From an uncultured bacterium (lineage in GTDB: Bacteria; Cyanobacteriota; Vampirovibrionia; Gastranaerophilales; Gastranaerophilaceae): a stretch of DNA of 64,000 bases. This document shows positions 20,830 through 33,119 of this stretch, piece by piece; position 1 is the stretch's first letter; the number at the start of each line of letters is the position of its first letter. The notes below the pieces were generated by a model. The model worked only from the letters and a program-made list of their open reading frames with translations, did not search any database and was not told the DNA's origin. Where the stretch lies: the NCBI GenBank assembly GCA_947361225.1, contig CANAIK010000002.1:26877-90876 (forward strand), written 5' to 3'. The position numbers were made by a program, and so were the translations under genes.

Positions 20830-21061
20830 AACTACAATTTAGCGTTAATTGTAACTATTTACAACGTAACTATTAACCCAAAACACTATAAATATAACCC
20901 AAAACAGTTTAAAATCCCCCTGGAATTTAGCTTAATTCAATGTTTTTCTTTATAAATTAACCTTTATTTGTTATAATAAATAAATGGGTAAGCTCCCGCT
21001 TATCACCCTCGCCCGCAGGCTTGTTAAGTAGAAATTTGAGCGGAGGGGTGGTGATGAAAAA

Positions 21062-21136
21062 GTGAAATTCTGTATAACAGAAAAAGCGCTATGGCTTATC
21101 TTAATGATAATCATAGCACTTCTTTTACTTAAATAG
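21062..21136 (+). CDS. Putative small hydrophobic toxin-like peptide MKFCITEKALWLILMIIIALLLLK (module A)
   Basis: GTG start; aligns codon by codon with module D peptide; GGAGGGGTGGTG upstream; below track size cutoff. Confidence 0.55.
   Translation: MKFCITEKALWLILMIIIALLLLK
21086..21119 (-). terminator. Putative antisense-RNA terminator inside module A ORF
   Basis: Minus strand: GTGCTATG..(TTATC..GATAA)..CATAGCGC-TTTTT. Confidence 0.55.
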
Positions 21137-26160: not shown

Positions 26161-26241
26161 ATGGAAAATATCAATTTGACTTTAATATTAATCTTATTGA
26201 TTATATACATAATAAAAAATGGCACCTATCTAAATAGATAA
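26161..26241 (+). CDS. Putative small hydrophobic toxin-like peptide MENINLTLILILLIIYIIKNGTYLNR (module C)
   Basis: AAGAAAGGAGG SD upstream; single TM-like core; antisense promoter/terminator layout as in modules A, D, E, F. Confidence 0.55.
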   Translation: MENINLTLILILLIIYIIKNGTYLNR

Positions 26242-26373: not shown

Positions 26374-26401
26374 CTTGAATTTTGTAATAAATAAGTTATA
26401 A
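26374..26401 (+). promoter_or_regulatory. Putative antisense RNA promoter, module D
   Basis: TTGAAT-N16-TATAAT. Confidence 0.65.
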
Positions 26402-26667
26402 TAAAAATAGGGAAAGAACCTCAAGAGGTGTCAGCTCTCAAGGTTCTTCTTAACTCCCTATTTTGCAAATGCGAGCGCTATTATTATCAATAAGATAAGA
26501 AGTAGCGCTTTTTCAGATACGCTAAATTGCATTTCATCACCACCTTTCCGCTCAATTTCTACTTAACAAGCCTGCGGGCGAGGGTGATAAGCGGGAGCTT
26601 ACCCATTTATTTATTATAACAAATAAAGGTTAGTTTATAAAGAAAAACATTGAATTAAGCTAAATTC
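26388..26667 (-). repeat. Inverted-repeat copy 2 (module D) of the ~280-bp element
   Basis: Reverse-complement match to 20923..21207. Confidence 0.9.
26457..26531 (-). CDS. Putative small hydrophobic toxin-like peptide MQFSVSEKALLLILLIIIALAFAK (module D)
   Basis: 24 aa, same length as module A peptide, GGAAAGGTGGTG upstream. Confidence 0.6.
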
Positions 26668-27059
26668 TCGGGTTTTTTCTTTCTTCCTCTTTTTAAACTA
26701 TTAACAATATTTTGTTCTTGGATAGTTTCATCCATATTTAAATCTTTAGCTATTTTATTAATATAATCAATGTAGTTTTTTGATTCAACTCCGCTTTTTT
26801 CTAACAAAGAAAGAATAACTTTAACCCCGACCAAATTTAAAGACAGATTTCTTGTCAAAAACTGTATAAATTTACCTTTTTCAATATCATAAACTGTATA
26901 ATAGCGTCTATTTTTGGGAGTTCTTTTCGGGATTAACAACCCTTCTTCATCATAAATTCTCAATGTTCTTTGATGAACTTTAAGAATATCTGCCATATTA
27001 CTTATTGATATTGCGATTTCATAAAAATTTTCTTTATTTAATTGCAAAATGACCTCCAA
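26655..27059 (-). CDS. MerR-family transcriptional regulator
   Basis: NMADILKVHQRTLRIYDEEGLLIPKRTPKNRRYY. Confidence 0.85.
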   Translation of the reverse strand: MEVILQLNKENFYEIAISISNMADILKVHQRTLRIYDEEGLLIPKRTPKNRRYYTVYDIEKGKFIQFLTRNLSLNLVGVKVILSLLEKSGVESKNYIDYINKIAKDLNMDETIQEQNIVNSLKRGRKKKPENLA

Positions 27060-27092
27060 AGTTCTTTGTTTATCTATATTTTAGTTAGTAAA

Positions 27093-27135
27093 TAAGCGTA
27101 GTTTTCTATAGAAATAATAAGCGTGTCAGTCTATA
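27093..27135 (+). promoter_or_regulatory. Paired 25-bp-spaced repeats before XRE gene
   Basis: TAAGCGTAGTTTTCTATA (27093) and TAAGCGTGTCAGTCTATA (27118). Confidence 0.7.
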
Positions 27136-27144
27136 TTGTCAAGT

Positions 27145-27360
27145 ATGAACACTAAAGTTTTAAAAAAATTAGGCAAAAACATAAAACGCTACAGACTTGA
27201 TTCAGGTCTAACACAAGAAGCACTTGCGCAAAAAGTTCGAAAACATCAAACTTACATTGGAAAACTGGAAACCGGCAAATGCAGTCCTTCAATAAAAACC
27301 CTTTTTGCAATTTCCAGAGCACTTCGAATTAAACTTTCAAATGTTTTTGATTTCGACTAA
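27145..27360 (+). CDS. Small XRE-family regulator
   Basis: RLDSGLTQEALAQKVRKHQTYIGKLETGKCSPS. Confidence 0.85.
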   Translation: MNTKVLKKLGKNIKRYRLDSGLTQEALAQKVRKHQTYIGKLETGKCSPSIKTLFAISRALRIKLSNVFDFD

Positions 27361-27409
27361 AGCAAAAAAAATTTTAAACTCTTTATTGATGTTCATTTTA
27401 CCAATAAAA

Positions 27410-27451
27410 AAGCGTGTCAGTCTATACAAATAGTAAGCGTGTCAGTCTATA
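27410..27451 (+). promoter_or_regulatory. Paired 25-bp-spaced repeats before second XRE gene
   Basis: AAGCGTGTCAGTCTATA at 27410 and TAAGCGTGTCAGTCTATA at 27434. Confidence 0.75.
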
Positions 27452-27460
27452 TTGTAAACT

Positions 27461-27682
27461 ATGAACACTAAAATCCTGGAAAATTTAGGGAAAAATATAA
27501 AAAAATACAGAATAGATTCCAGCCTAACCCAAGAACAACTGGCTGAAAAGGTTGGGGTTCATCCTACCTATATCGGGAAACTTGAGGGTGGTAAAAACAA
27601 CCCCTCAACAACAATGGTGTTTAAAATTACAAGAGCTCTAAAAATAACATTACCTCAAATTTTTGATTTTGATAAAAAATAA
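27461..27682 (+). CDS. Small XRE-family regulator
   Basis: RIDSSLTQEQLAEKVGVHPTYIGKLEGGKNNPS. Confidence 0.87.
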   Translation: MNTKILENLGKNIKKYRIDSSLTQEQLAEKVGVHPTYIGKLEGGKNNPSTTMVFKITRALKITLPQIFDFDKK

Positions 27683-27730
27683 AGGATTTATATACAACTT
27701 TACACTAAATACTCCTAAAAACTAATCATA

Positions 27731-27801
27731 ATGTCATTCCGAACTTGTTTCGGAATCTGATAATTGGTAGGATGCTGAAACGAGTTCACCTTGGCAGTTT
27801 T
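27731..27801. repeat. Dispersed palindromic-type intergenic repeat (CATTCCGAACTTGTTTCGGAATC...GAAACGAGTTC)
   Basis: ATTCCGAACTTGTTTCGGAAT dyad plus echo; resembles common bacterial intergenic repeats, single copy here. Confidence 0.5.
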
Positions 27802-27845
27802 AACTATTTTTAGTGCAATCTGCTCTTAAGCCTCAAAAAATAAAT

Positions 27846-28091
27846 ATGACAAACCAAAAATTTAACAGTATTATTGCAAAAAGAATTAAAAAACTGCGAG
27901 AATCCAGCAATTTGACCCTTGAACAACTCGCTTATCAAAGCGGGATATCCAAAGGCGGATTGAGTGAAATTGAGCGAAATCTTAAAGAACCAAGAATGTA
28001 TACAATTGTCAAAATCTGCGCAGGGCTTGGAATAAGCGCAAAAGACTTTTTTAGTTTTGATGAAATAGATAGATTTATAAACGAATTATAA
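27846..28091 (+). CDS. XRE-family regulator
   Basis: RESSNLTLEQLAYQSGISKGGLSEIERNLKEP. Confidence 0.85.
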   Translation: MTNQKFNSIIAKRIKKLRESSNLTLEQLAYQSGISKGGLSEIERNLKEPRMYTIVKICAGLGISAKDFFSFDEIDRFINEL

Positions 28092-28206
28092 TTCCCCAAC
28101 CATTAACAGTAATTAGAAATTTGATATAATAATTCTAAGGATAAATACCTTACTTCCTCCAACACATACAATTTAATGAAGAATTGGTTGGAAAGGAGGT
28201 GAAAAT

Positions 28207-28281
28207 ATGACTGAAAAGATAATAAAAACCGCCATAGCGGCAACTATAGCGGTTTTAAAAATTTTATCAATTTGGTTATAG
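28207..28281 (+). CDS. Putative small hydrophobic toxin-like peptide MTEKIIKTAIAATIAVLKILSIWL (module E)
   Basis: AAAGGAGGTG SD; 24 aa; paralogue in module F. Confidence 0.65.
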   Translation: MTEKIIKTAIAATIAVLKILSIWL

Positions 28282-28382
28282 GGTATGAAGTGAAACCTCG
28301 AAGAAGTTAGATTTCTTTGGGGTTTCCCCCTATATTTCTTGCAAATTATGCAAGAAGGAAGACATTGGTCTTCATATTATAT

Positions 28383-28410
28383 TATAAACCGTTTTTATAA
28401 AAATTCAAGT
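28383..28410 (-). promoter_or_regulatory. Putative antisense RNA promoter, module E
   Basis: Minus strand TTGAAT-N16-TATAAT. Confidence 0.65.
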
Positions 28411-28530
28411 TTCATTCTTACAAATCATTAACGGCAATTAAAAATTTGATATAATAATTCTAAGGGTAAACACCTTGTTTTCTCCTCTAGCACAGACATT
28501 TGTGAAGAATTAGCTAGAAAGGAGGAAAAA

Positions 28531-28605
28531 ATGACAAAAGAACAAATAAAAATTGCTATAAAGGCAATTATAGCAATTTTAACATTTATTTATTCTATGT
28601 TATAG
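28531..28605 (+). CDS. Putative small hydrophobic toxin-like peptide MTKEQIKIAIKAIIAILTFIYSML (module F)
   Basis: AAAGGAGGAAAAA SD; 24 aa. Confidence 0.65.
   Translation: MTKEQIKIAIKAIIAILTFIYSML
28549..28580 (-). terminator. Putative antisense-RNA terminator inside module F ORF
   Basis: AAAATTGCTATAA-6nt-TTATAGCAATTTT perfect 13-bp stem, minus-strand tail TTTTTATTTG. Confidence 0.65.
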
Positions 28606-28696
28606 GGTGTGAAGTGAAACCTCAAGGAAGTTAGATTTCTTTGGGGTTTCCCCCTATATTTCTTGCAAATTATGCAAGAAAGTCTTCATATTATTT

Positions 28697-28724
28697 ATTA
28701 TAAACCGTTTTTATAAAAATTCAA
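28697..28724 (-). promoter_or_regulatory. Putative antisense RNA promoter, module F
   Basis: Minus strand TTGAAT-N16-TATAAT. Confidence 0.65.
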
Positions 28725-31907: not shown

Positions 31908-33119
31908 TTGTGGGGATTCTACAGCTTAAAAACGGATGTTTTAGTGCTTAAGAAAAAGAAAAATATTTTCTATAATTTAAATTTTGACGCATTTTTTCCT
32001 CAACTTAGAGAAACTGTAAAAAATGCGGTTGAAAAATACTGGGAGCTTGAATCTAGCGTCTACATTCAAGCTATAAATGACTTTCGAGAAATAAGACAAG
32101 AATCCCTGGTTAAAAATTTGGACTTTTTTTCAAGCCAAATTAAGGTTGATAAACACAAACCCGTTATAATAAGACTTGGGAAAAATTTTGTTGAACAATA
32201 CCTAAACTCAACTCTTGAGGATTCACCCCCCGATTTTAAGCTTTCCTCCTTAACTCCTTTAGAAATAAAAATTCTCAATAATTTTGCCGAGTTTTTATAC
32301 AAAAAAATAAATGAAATTATCCTATCTCCAAAAGTAGCTAAAATTAGTGAAAAAAGCGAAAAAAACCTTAACTTAATATTAGGAATCTCCTCCAGAAGTG
32401 ATTTTTTAGCTCAAGTTGTCCTATCAATCCCCATTGATAGAATCCCTTTGGAAGAAATTGAATTTGCAACAAACTTTAACGACGAAGATTTTGCAGCTTC
32501 CAATGTCACAACAAGAATTAGAATCGGACGATCAAAAATCACGGTTGAGGATTTAAAAAATCTTCAAAAAGAAGATATTGTGCTCTTAGAGGATAGTTCT
32601 GCCGTCAATTTAGTCCTTGTTTCAGGAGCTTTAGAACAAAAATTCAAAGTCAAGGTTAATCCTGATTTGATAATGAACTTTGATAACGAAGAAGAAGAGA
32701 ATGATATACAACAACAAATTAACAACGAGGTAGCAATGGAAAAAAATCTTTGGGATGATATCCAAATTGAAATAAGTGCGGAATTTGATAAAGTCAAAAT
32801 GACGCTTGGAGAGCTTAAACAAATTACAAAAGGACAAATTGTCGATTTGGGCTCTGTTTTTAACAACGAAATTTCTCTTTATGTTGAGAATAAAAAAGTT
32901 GCTAAAGGGGAGCTGCTTATTATTAATGATAAATATGCAATTAAGTTGAATGAAGTTCTATCGAGTTCGAAAAGCGAAACTCAAGAAACGAAAGAGGTTG
33001 AGAATCCTCAAAAAGAACCTCAACCCCAGCCTCAAGAGCAAGAACAACAGCCCCAAGCGCCAAATGAAACTCAAGAGGTTGAAGACGAGGAATTTGACTA
33101 TTCGGATTTTGAAAAATAA
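31908..33119 (+). CDS. Flagellar motor switch FliM/FliN-family protein with two SpoA-like domains
   Basis: RIRIGRSKITVEDLKNLQKEDIVLLEDS and KVKMTLGELKQITKGQIVDLGSVFNNEISLYVENKKVAKGELLIINDKYAIKL. Confidence 0.8.
   Translation: MWGFYSLKTDVLVLKKKKNIFYNLNFDAFFPQLRETVKNAVEKYWELESSVYIQAINDFREIRQESLVKNLDFFSSQIKVDKHKPVIIRLGKNFVEQYLNSTLEDSPPDFKLSSLTPLEIKILNNFAEFLYKKINEIILSPKVAKISEKSEKNLNLILGISSRSDFLAQVVLSIPIDRIPLEEIEFATNFNDEDFAASNVTTRIRIGRSKITVEDLKNLQKEDIVLLEDSSAVNLVLVSGALEQKFKVKVNPDLIMNFDNEEEENDIQQQINNEVAMEKNLWDDIQIEISAEFDKVKMTLGELKQITKGQIVDLGSVFNNEISLYVENKKVAKGELLIINDKYAIKLNEVLSSSKSETQETKEVENPQKEPQPQPQEQEQQPQAPNETQEVEDEEFDYSDFEK

Follow-up and report, generated by a model that had tools for sequence, protein, structure and literature searches.

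The par locus of pAD1 has convergent promoters, and its message masks the Shine-Dalgarno sequence (SD) in a 5' stem-loop, with an upstream helix shielding the 5' end (PMC7472228). The AapA mRNAs of Helicobacter combine a 5'-3' long-distance interaction with transient upstream anti-SD hairpins and are activated at the 3' end (PMC6733600). In Bacillus subtilis, SR4 and bsrG share about 120 nt at their 3' ends, and SR4 alters the fold of the distant ribosome site (PMC4147584). As stated in 2025, type I systems had been described in Proteobacteria, Firmicutes and Tenericutes only, before the first type I-like locus reported in Cyanobacteria, msoT1/msoA1 of Microcystis, whose putative toxins have 39-81 aa; the same paper makes no mention of Melainabacteria or Vampirovibrio (PMC12390103). 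Among open-licence papers, we found none on type I toxins in Melainabacteria or Gastranaerophilales.

The window analyzed here is a stretch of 64,000 nt from an uncultured member of the Gastranaerophilaceae. It contains two adjacent modules, E and F, which we interpret, with a probability of roughly 80%, as copies of one type I toxin-antitoxin-like module, found widely across the family and working by the mechanism described below. The predicted anatomy is that of a type I toxin-antitoxin locus, which would work like Fst/par, BsrG/SR4, and AapA/IsoA. With Fst/par it shares a small hydrophobic peptide encoded by the mRNA, convergent promoters, an SD-hiding 5' stem-loop, and intramolecular sequestration of the 5' end (PMC7472228); with AapA/IsoA, a local upstream anti-SD hairpin with compensatory changes, a 5'-3' long-distance interaction, and multiple copies (PMC6733600); with BsrG/SR4 and TxpA/RatA of B. 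subtilis, a putative cis-encoded antisense RNA over the 3' half of the toxin mRNA (PMC4147584); and with msoT1/msoA1, whose putative toxins are longer, the type I-like layout of the locus (PMC12390103).

Nevertheless, the locus departs from Fst/par and AapA in those of their defining features that were tested. The PxxxG/C motif of Fst occurs in none of 87 peptides. Whereas in Fst/par a bidirectional terminator is shared and the antisense RNA stops short of the coding region, a separate antisense terminator is predicted here within the ORF; the antisense promoter is situated downstream of the 3' hairpin of the mRNA, and transcription from it is predicted to cross the mRNA terminator and enter the ORF; and the leader appears to pair across the whole ORF with the region following the stop codon. 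In AapA the SD itself is part of the long-distance interaction. The corresponding helix here instead engages the leader upstream of the SD hairpin, and this local hairpin is predicted to remain closed when the 3' end is truncated. The BsrG and TxpA toxins are longer than the peptides considered here, and we know of no helix between leader and post-stop region in BsrG/SR4 or TxpA/RatA.

The SD-sequestering hairpins of the two modules consist of the following elements.

28137-28206, plus strand: leader of module E (match to covariance model R1 at 28137-28209, 84.3 bits; putative transcript start near 28137)
28153-28163, plus strand: anti-SD CTTCCT (28153-28158) and 5' half of the inner stem, CCAAC (28159-28163), of E
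28187-28199, plus strand: 3' half of the E inner stem, GTTGG (28187-28191), AA bulge (28192-28193), and paired SD AGGAGG (28194-28199)
28207, plus strand: start codon ATG of E
28462-28530, plus strand: leader of module F (R1 match at 28462-28533, 73 bits)
28481-28491, plus strand: anti-SD TCTCCT (28481-28486) and 5' half of the inner stem, CTAGC (28487-28491), of F
28513-28526, plus strand: 3' half of the F inner stem, GCTAG (28513-28517), AA bulge (28518-28519), and paired SD AGGAGG(A) (28520-28525)
28531, plus strand: start codon ATG of F

Both hairpins were found with exactly the letters and coordinates given in a preliminary description of this DNA, and each ends in the SD of a 24-codon ORF. 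The inner-stem compensation between E and F claimed there is also present and comprises two pairs, C-G to U-A and A-U to G-C. The predicted minimum-energy folds of both mRNAs contain the SD hairpin (-18.4 kcal/mol for the E leader), and the leaders alone, compared with dinucleotide shuffles, have folding z-scores of -3.3 for E, -2.5 for F, and -2.0 on average for 92 relatives. However, E and F, spaced about 325 nt apart, are tandem duplicates with 82-86% identity across long blocks, so that their two compensated pairs alone make a thin case. The comparison of these duplicates would also fit an SD pairing that is a mere side effect of a CU-rich leader meeting a purine-rich SD, the similarity of the two hairpins being due to recent duplication only.

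Relatives were decisive. They were collected by a DNA search and then by a covariance model of the leader (R1), and 92 distinct leaders formed the covariation set. Aligning them to the structure biases the result towards covariation; the same covariation was already visible in the first MAFFT alignment of 12 sequences. Strong covariation was observed at the three middle pairs of the inner stem. Cells changed on both sides numbered 111, compared with 31 +/- 4 in shuffles, and the covariation score was 0.309 against 0.144 for shuffled alignments (0 of 500), all slid registers scoring far below. The SD itself takes part in this process: the pair at SD position 3 is U-A in 53 of the leaders, A-U in 10, C-G in 9, and U-G in 10, and the SD variants GGAGG, GGGGG, and GGTGG change together with their pairing partner. 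For instance, among copies from the same genus, GGGGG stands opposite CCCCC in locus L005, and the window's minus strand has GGTGG opposite CACC. In 34 disjoint sister pairs, double-compensatory changes of the inner stem numbered 22, with 2 wobble changes and 19 that break a pair; the last group probably includes some alignment register shifts. This family-wide covariation makes the hairpin observation solid beyond the E/F pair, and the sequestration of the SD with compensatory evolution, as originally noted, is strongly supported. Together with the matched SD variants and a perfect 5-nt SD complement upstream in 48% of leaders (6% in shuffled ones), it already contradicts an SD pairing that arose as a by-product of base composition, which we regard as extremely improbable.

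Other parts of the leader behave differently. Its own 5' mini-hairpin (AGG/CCU) was rejected as a covarying element, its pairs being mostly invariant, paired in only 82%, and without clear covariation. In the apical loop (leader alignment A2), the letters CACA(G/C)A... and AGAA are kept while the surrounding stems vary freely; they could form a binding site or a ribosome standby site. At the gathering score, Rfam gave no matches in the whole window, and identity of the leader with a known Rfam element was rejected, the best sub-threshold match being L10_leader on the antisense strand, at 30 bits against a required 44.

In 77 predicted full-length folds, the SD is paired to the leader at 97%. 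It is unpaired at 2.8% in the full-length messages, at 3.0% when everything past the stop codon is omitted, and at 43% once the anti-SD part of the 5' leader is removed. At the level of covariation and folding, the primary message would be poorly translatable, its ribosome site being occluded as expected of a type I toxin mRNA. The models predict that the SD is opened by truncating the message at the 5' end and not at the 3' end; since the folds leave it closed after 3' truncation, the 3'-trimming switch of AapA and hok is not predicted here.

When the modules were listed end to end, a putative long-distance helix was found between GNNCC in the leader and GGNNC immediately after the stop codon.

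28145-28149, plus strand: leader arm of the E helix, AUACC
28282-28286, plus strand: post-stop arm of the E helix, GGUAU
28470-28474, plus strand: leader arm of the F helix, ACACC
28606-28610, plus strand: post-stop arm of the F helix, GGUGU, compensating for GGUAU of E

The leader motif is GUAAG-NN-CC or near, the post-stop motif is GG-NN-C, and the variable letters are complementary. Thus AUACC/GGUAU of E is changed to ACACC/GGUGU in F, and other modules have GUUCC/GGAAC, GCUCC/GGAGU, GUACC/GGUAC, and AGACC with GGUCG or GGUCU. In permutations, which ignore shared ancestry, the summed duplex energy of matched arms (-465) was never reached (-304 +/- 15, 0 of 5000), and the maximum of standard pairs was 82%, compared with 93.6% in matched arms. 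The 34 disjoint sister pairs contained 7 double-compensatory, 12 wobble-tolerated, and 13 pair-breaking changes in this helix. It is short (5-7 bp), its contribution to the predicted fold is only about 2 kcal/mol, and for two of the four modules in the window the predicted fold favours the local 5' hairpin and the full terminator over it. This helix appears to enclose both the SD hairpin and the ORF. A further candidate, pairing the AGGG at the 5' end with the CCCTA arm of the terminator, is present in the predicted folds of E and F and was rejected as unsupported by permutation (matched -416.8, permuted -406.9 +/- 7.8, 534 of 5000).

A covarying helix between leader and post-stop region invites comparison with AapA and hok, on whose model it would serve as the main lock, 3' trimming as the activating step, and the SD hairpin as a transient co-transcriptional structure only, all three having counterparts in AapA (PMC6733600). 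We consider this unlikely for E and F: the helix excludes the SD, loss of the 3' end hardly changes the predicted SD opening, and the SD hairpin of the E leader is strong.

The leaders precede short ORFs, which in modules E and F are as follows.

28207-28281, plus strand: toxin-like ORF of E, MTEKIIKTAIAATIAVLKILSIWL, with codon-position bias among relatives
28531-28605, plus strand: toxin-like ORF of F, MTKEQIKIAIKAIIAILTFIYSML

Across relatives, the peptides have 21-32 aa, mostly 24, and a mean best 15-aa Kyte-Doolittle value of 2.54; the ORF length is 24-25 in 76 of 86 modules. Codon changes among relatives fall on the third position in 166 cases, on the first in 114, and on the second in 67. 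The near-constant length, the hydrophobicity, and the third-position bias support the prediction that the ORF codes for protein. No match to Pfam, NCBIfam, or a known toxin family was obtained for the peptides, such short queries matching poorly. In five loci (L076, L088, L097, L100, and L125), the same leader precedes an unrelated peptide of 32 aa, mostly ending in ELELLELFLNS or near. Leaders thus appear to have been swapped between peptides.

Candidate promoters and terminators surround both modules.

28103-28130, plus strand: predicted promoter of the E mRNA, TTAACA-16-TATAAT with TG before the -10 (11/12 consensus)
28428-28455, plus strand: predicted promoter of the F mRNA (10/12)
28289-28334, plus strand: 3' hairpin of E (GAAACC...GGGGTTTC) and CCCCCTATA, presumed mRNA terminator
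28381-28408, minus strand: convergent promoter of E for the antisense RNA, TTGAAT-16-TATAAT
28222-28374, minus strand: predicted antisense RNA of E, with ends taken from the promoter and terminator predictions
28225-28256, minus strand: antisense terminator hairpin within the E ORF, followed by TATTATCTTT
28697-28724, minus strand: convergent antisense promoter of F, TTGAAT-16-TATAAT
28549-28580, minus strand: antisense terminator-like hairpin within the F ORF

In the family, a sense promoter of at least 10/12 is found in 53% of cases (7% in shuffles), and its -10 usually ends 5-8 nt before the leader. The convergent promoter reaches at least 10/12 consensus in 91% of 85 distinct downstream regions, compared with 6% in shuffles, and its spacer is 16 or 17 without exception. 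The hairpin within the ORF exceeds that of synonymous codon shuffles (79 ORFs, mean z -3.5, 94% at p<=0.05), and the 8 nt following it contain at least 5 T in 71% of cases on the antisense strand and in 1% on the sense strand. The convergent promoter and the in-ORF terminator therefore predict an antisense RNA of about 150 nt that starts downstream of the mRNA 3' hairpin and ends midway through the ORF. These two conserved signals lend independent support to the earlier reading of the message as a type I toxin mRNA. An extra hairpin, TTTCTTGCAAATTATGCAAGAA, lies between the mRNA terminator and the antisense promoter in E (28335-28380) and F (28660-28690); it is absent from most relatives, and the predicted antisense RNA would begin with it.

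A message of this kind may do without processing, as in Fst or BsrG. The SD hairpin would then slow translation, the free message being translated slowly when the antisense RNA is scarce, and the long-distance helix would protect the 5' end or tune antisense binding. The SD stem-loop, the 5'-protecting upstream helix, and the convergent promoters of par pAD1 (PMC7472228) offer precedents, as does the distant effect of the SR4 overlap on the ribosome site of bsrG (PMC4147584). On the other hand, the predicted SD opening averages only about 3%, and the antisense RNA is predicted here to end inside the ORF. Regulation without processing is possible, and we lean against it.

Sequence evolution supports the SD hairpin, the long-distance helix, the antisense promoter, the antisense terminator, and the protein-coding ORF; for transcription, antisense pairing, toxicity, and cleavage, we infer the following. 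The upstream anti-SD would capture the SD as it emerges from transcription, leaving the nascent message untranslatable. Once the 3' end is made, the leader would also pair with the post-stop bases and close the message around the ORF. The convergent promoter would yield the antisense RNA over the 3' hairpin, the post-stop arm, and the second half of the ORF, stopping at a terminator encoded by the toxin codons, and pairing of this RNA with the message would silence or destroy it. Because both locks lie in the leader, a single 5' cut removing it would release both the SD and the post-stop arm at once. For the same reason we weakly favour the 5' cut as the likeliest activation step, by a small margin over slow translation combined with clearance of the message by the antisense RNA, as in par and BsrG. 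We suggest, tentatively and at less than even odds, a modular double-lock leader: one 5' segment, common to unrelated peptides, would combine the anti-SD with an arm of the ORF-spanning helix, so that one 5' cut would open the ribosome site and expose the antisense target, while the location of the antisense terminator in toxin codons would let the RNA antitoxin partly dictate the peptide sequence.

The leader model has matches in 14 of 28 genomes of the genus (E<=1) and in 117 of 240 sampled genomes of the family, representing 31 of 41 genera; these genomes are largely fragmented assemblies, and the E-values, from a short calibration, are rough. In the order sample, matches occur in 88 of 193 genomes, three of them from other families, and in the phylum sample in 64 of 294, all within the family of the window. 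Carriers include 'Cyanobacteria bacterium SIG27'. The matches are patchy and multi-copy, with up to 8 per genome. A constant gene neighbour, for example the XRE regulators preceding E, was rejected, since by eye the contexts vary (XRE-like, AbrB-like, phage-like, housekeeping). Some modules, among those at L005, L051, and L077, adjoin by eye phage-like genes, for instance, a terminase-like ORF in L051, and others adjoin housekeeping genes. A phage origin was also rejected: annotated phages gave no match, and one leader pattern was absent from viral contigs.

That many modules adjoin housekeeping genes, and that there is one similarity to a holin family, weak and below significance (E 0.015), could point to a regulated small membrane peptide with a role in stress, signalling, or phage-related processes rather than a toxin, the antisense RNA being an ordinary off switch. 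We find this quite unlikely, as two RNA locks, a dedicated antisense gene, tandem and multiple copies, and patchiness are traits of toxin modules and would presumably be costly for a harmless peptide. If it is a type I-like module, the element represents a multi-copy family, present in about half of the genomes sampled from one bacterial family related to Cyanobacteriota. Its RNA anatomy is testable, and hundreds of natural variants are available, allowing direct tests of the silence of a toxin mRNA during its synthesis and of the sharing of codons by an antisense terminator and a peptide.

Two additional modules were identified in the window.

26530-26605, minus strand: leader of the third module, including ATG, with SD AGGTGG (26545-26540) opposite ATCACC (26588-26583); R1 match 53.7 bits
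26458-26532, minus strand: ORF of the third module, MQFSVSEKALLLILLIIIALAFAK
26375-26402, plus strand: predicted convergent antisense promoter of the third module (10/12)
20985-21064, plus strand: leader of the fourth module, including the GTG start; R1 match 33.1 bits
21062-21136, plus strand: ORF of the fourth module (GTG), MKFCITEKALWLILMIIIALLLLK

A further hydrophobic ORF, MENINLTLILILLIIYIIKNGTYLNR (26161-26241, plus strand), has a good SD and is without the conserved leader. It has a convergent 11/12 promoter (26327-26300, minus strand) and an in-ORF antisense terminator (26251-26216, minus strand), and this locus is possibly a second class of module. One MerR-type gene and three HTH_3 regulator genes are clustered between the toxin-like modules (26655-28091). 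The region 27091-27451 contains repeats AAGCGTGTCAGTCTATA, one of them degenerate, with two copies 25 bp apart before each XRE-type regulator gene (27141 and 27461); these repeats are likely operator sites. Finally, a protein of 403 aa encoded at 31908-33119 (plus strand) has two matches to the FliM/FliN C-terminal domain (flagellar C-ring or secretion).
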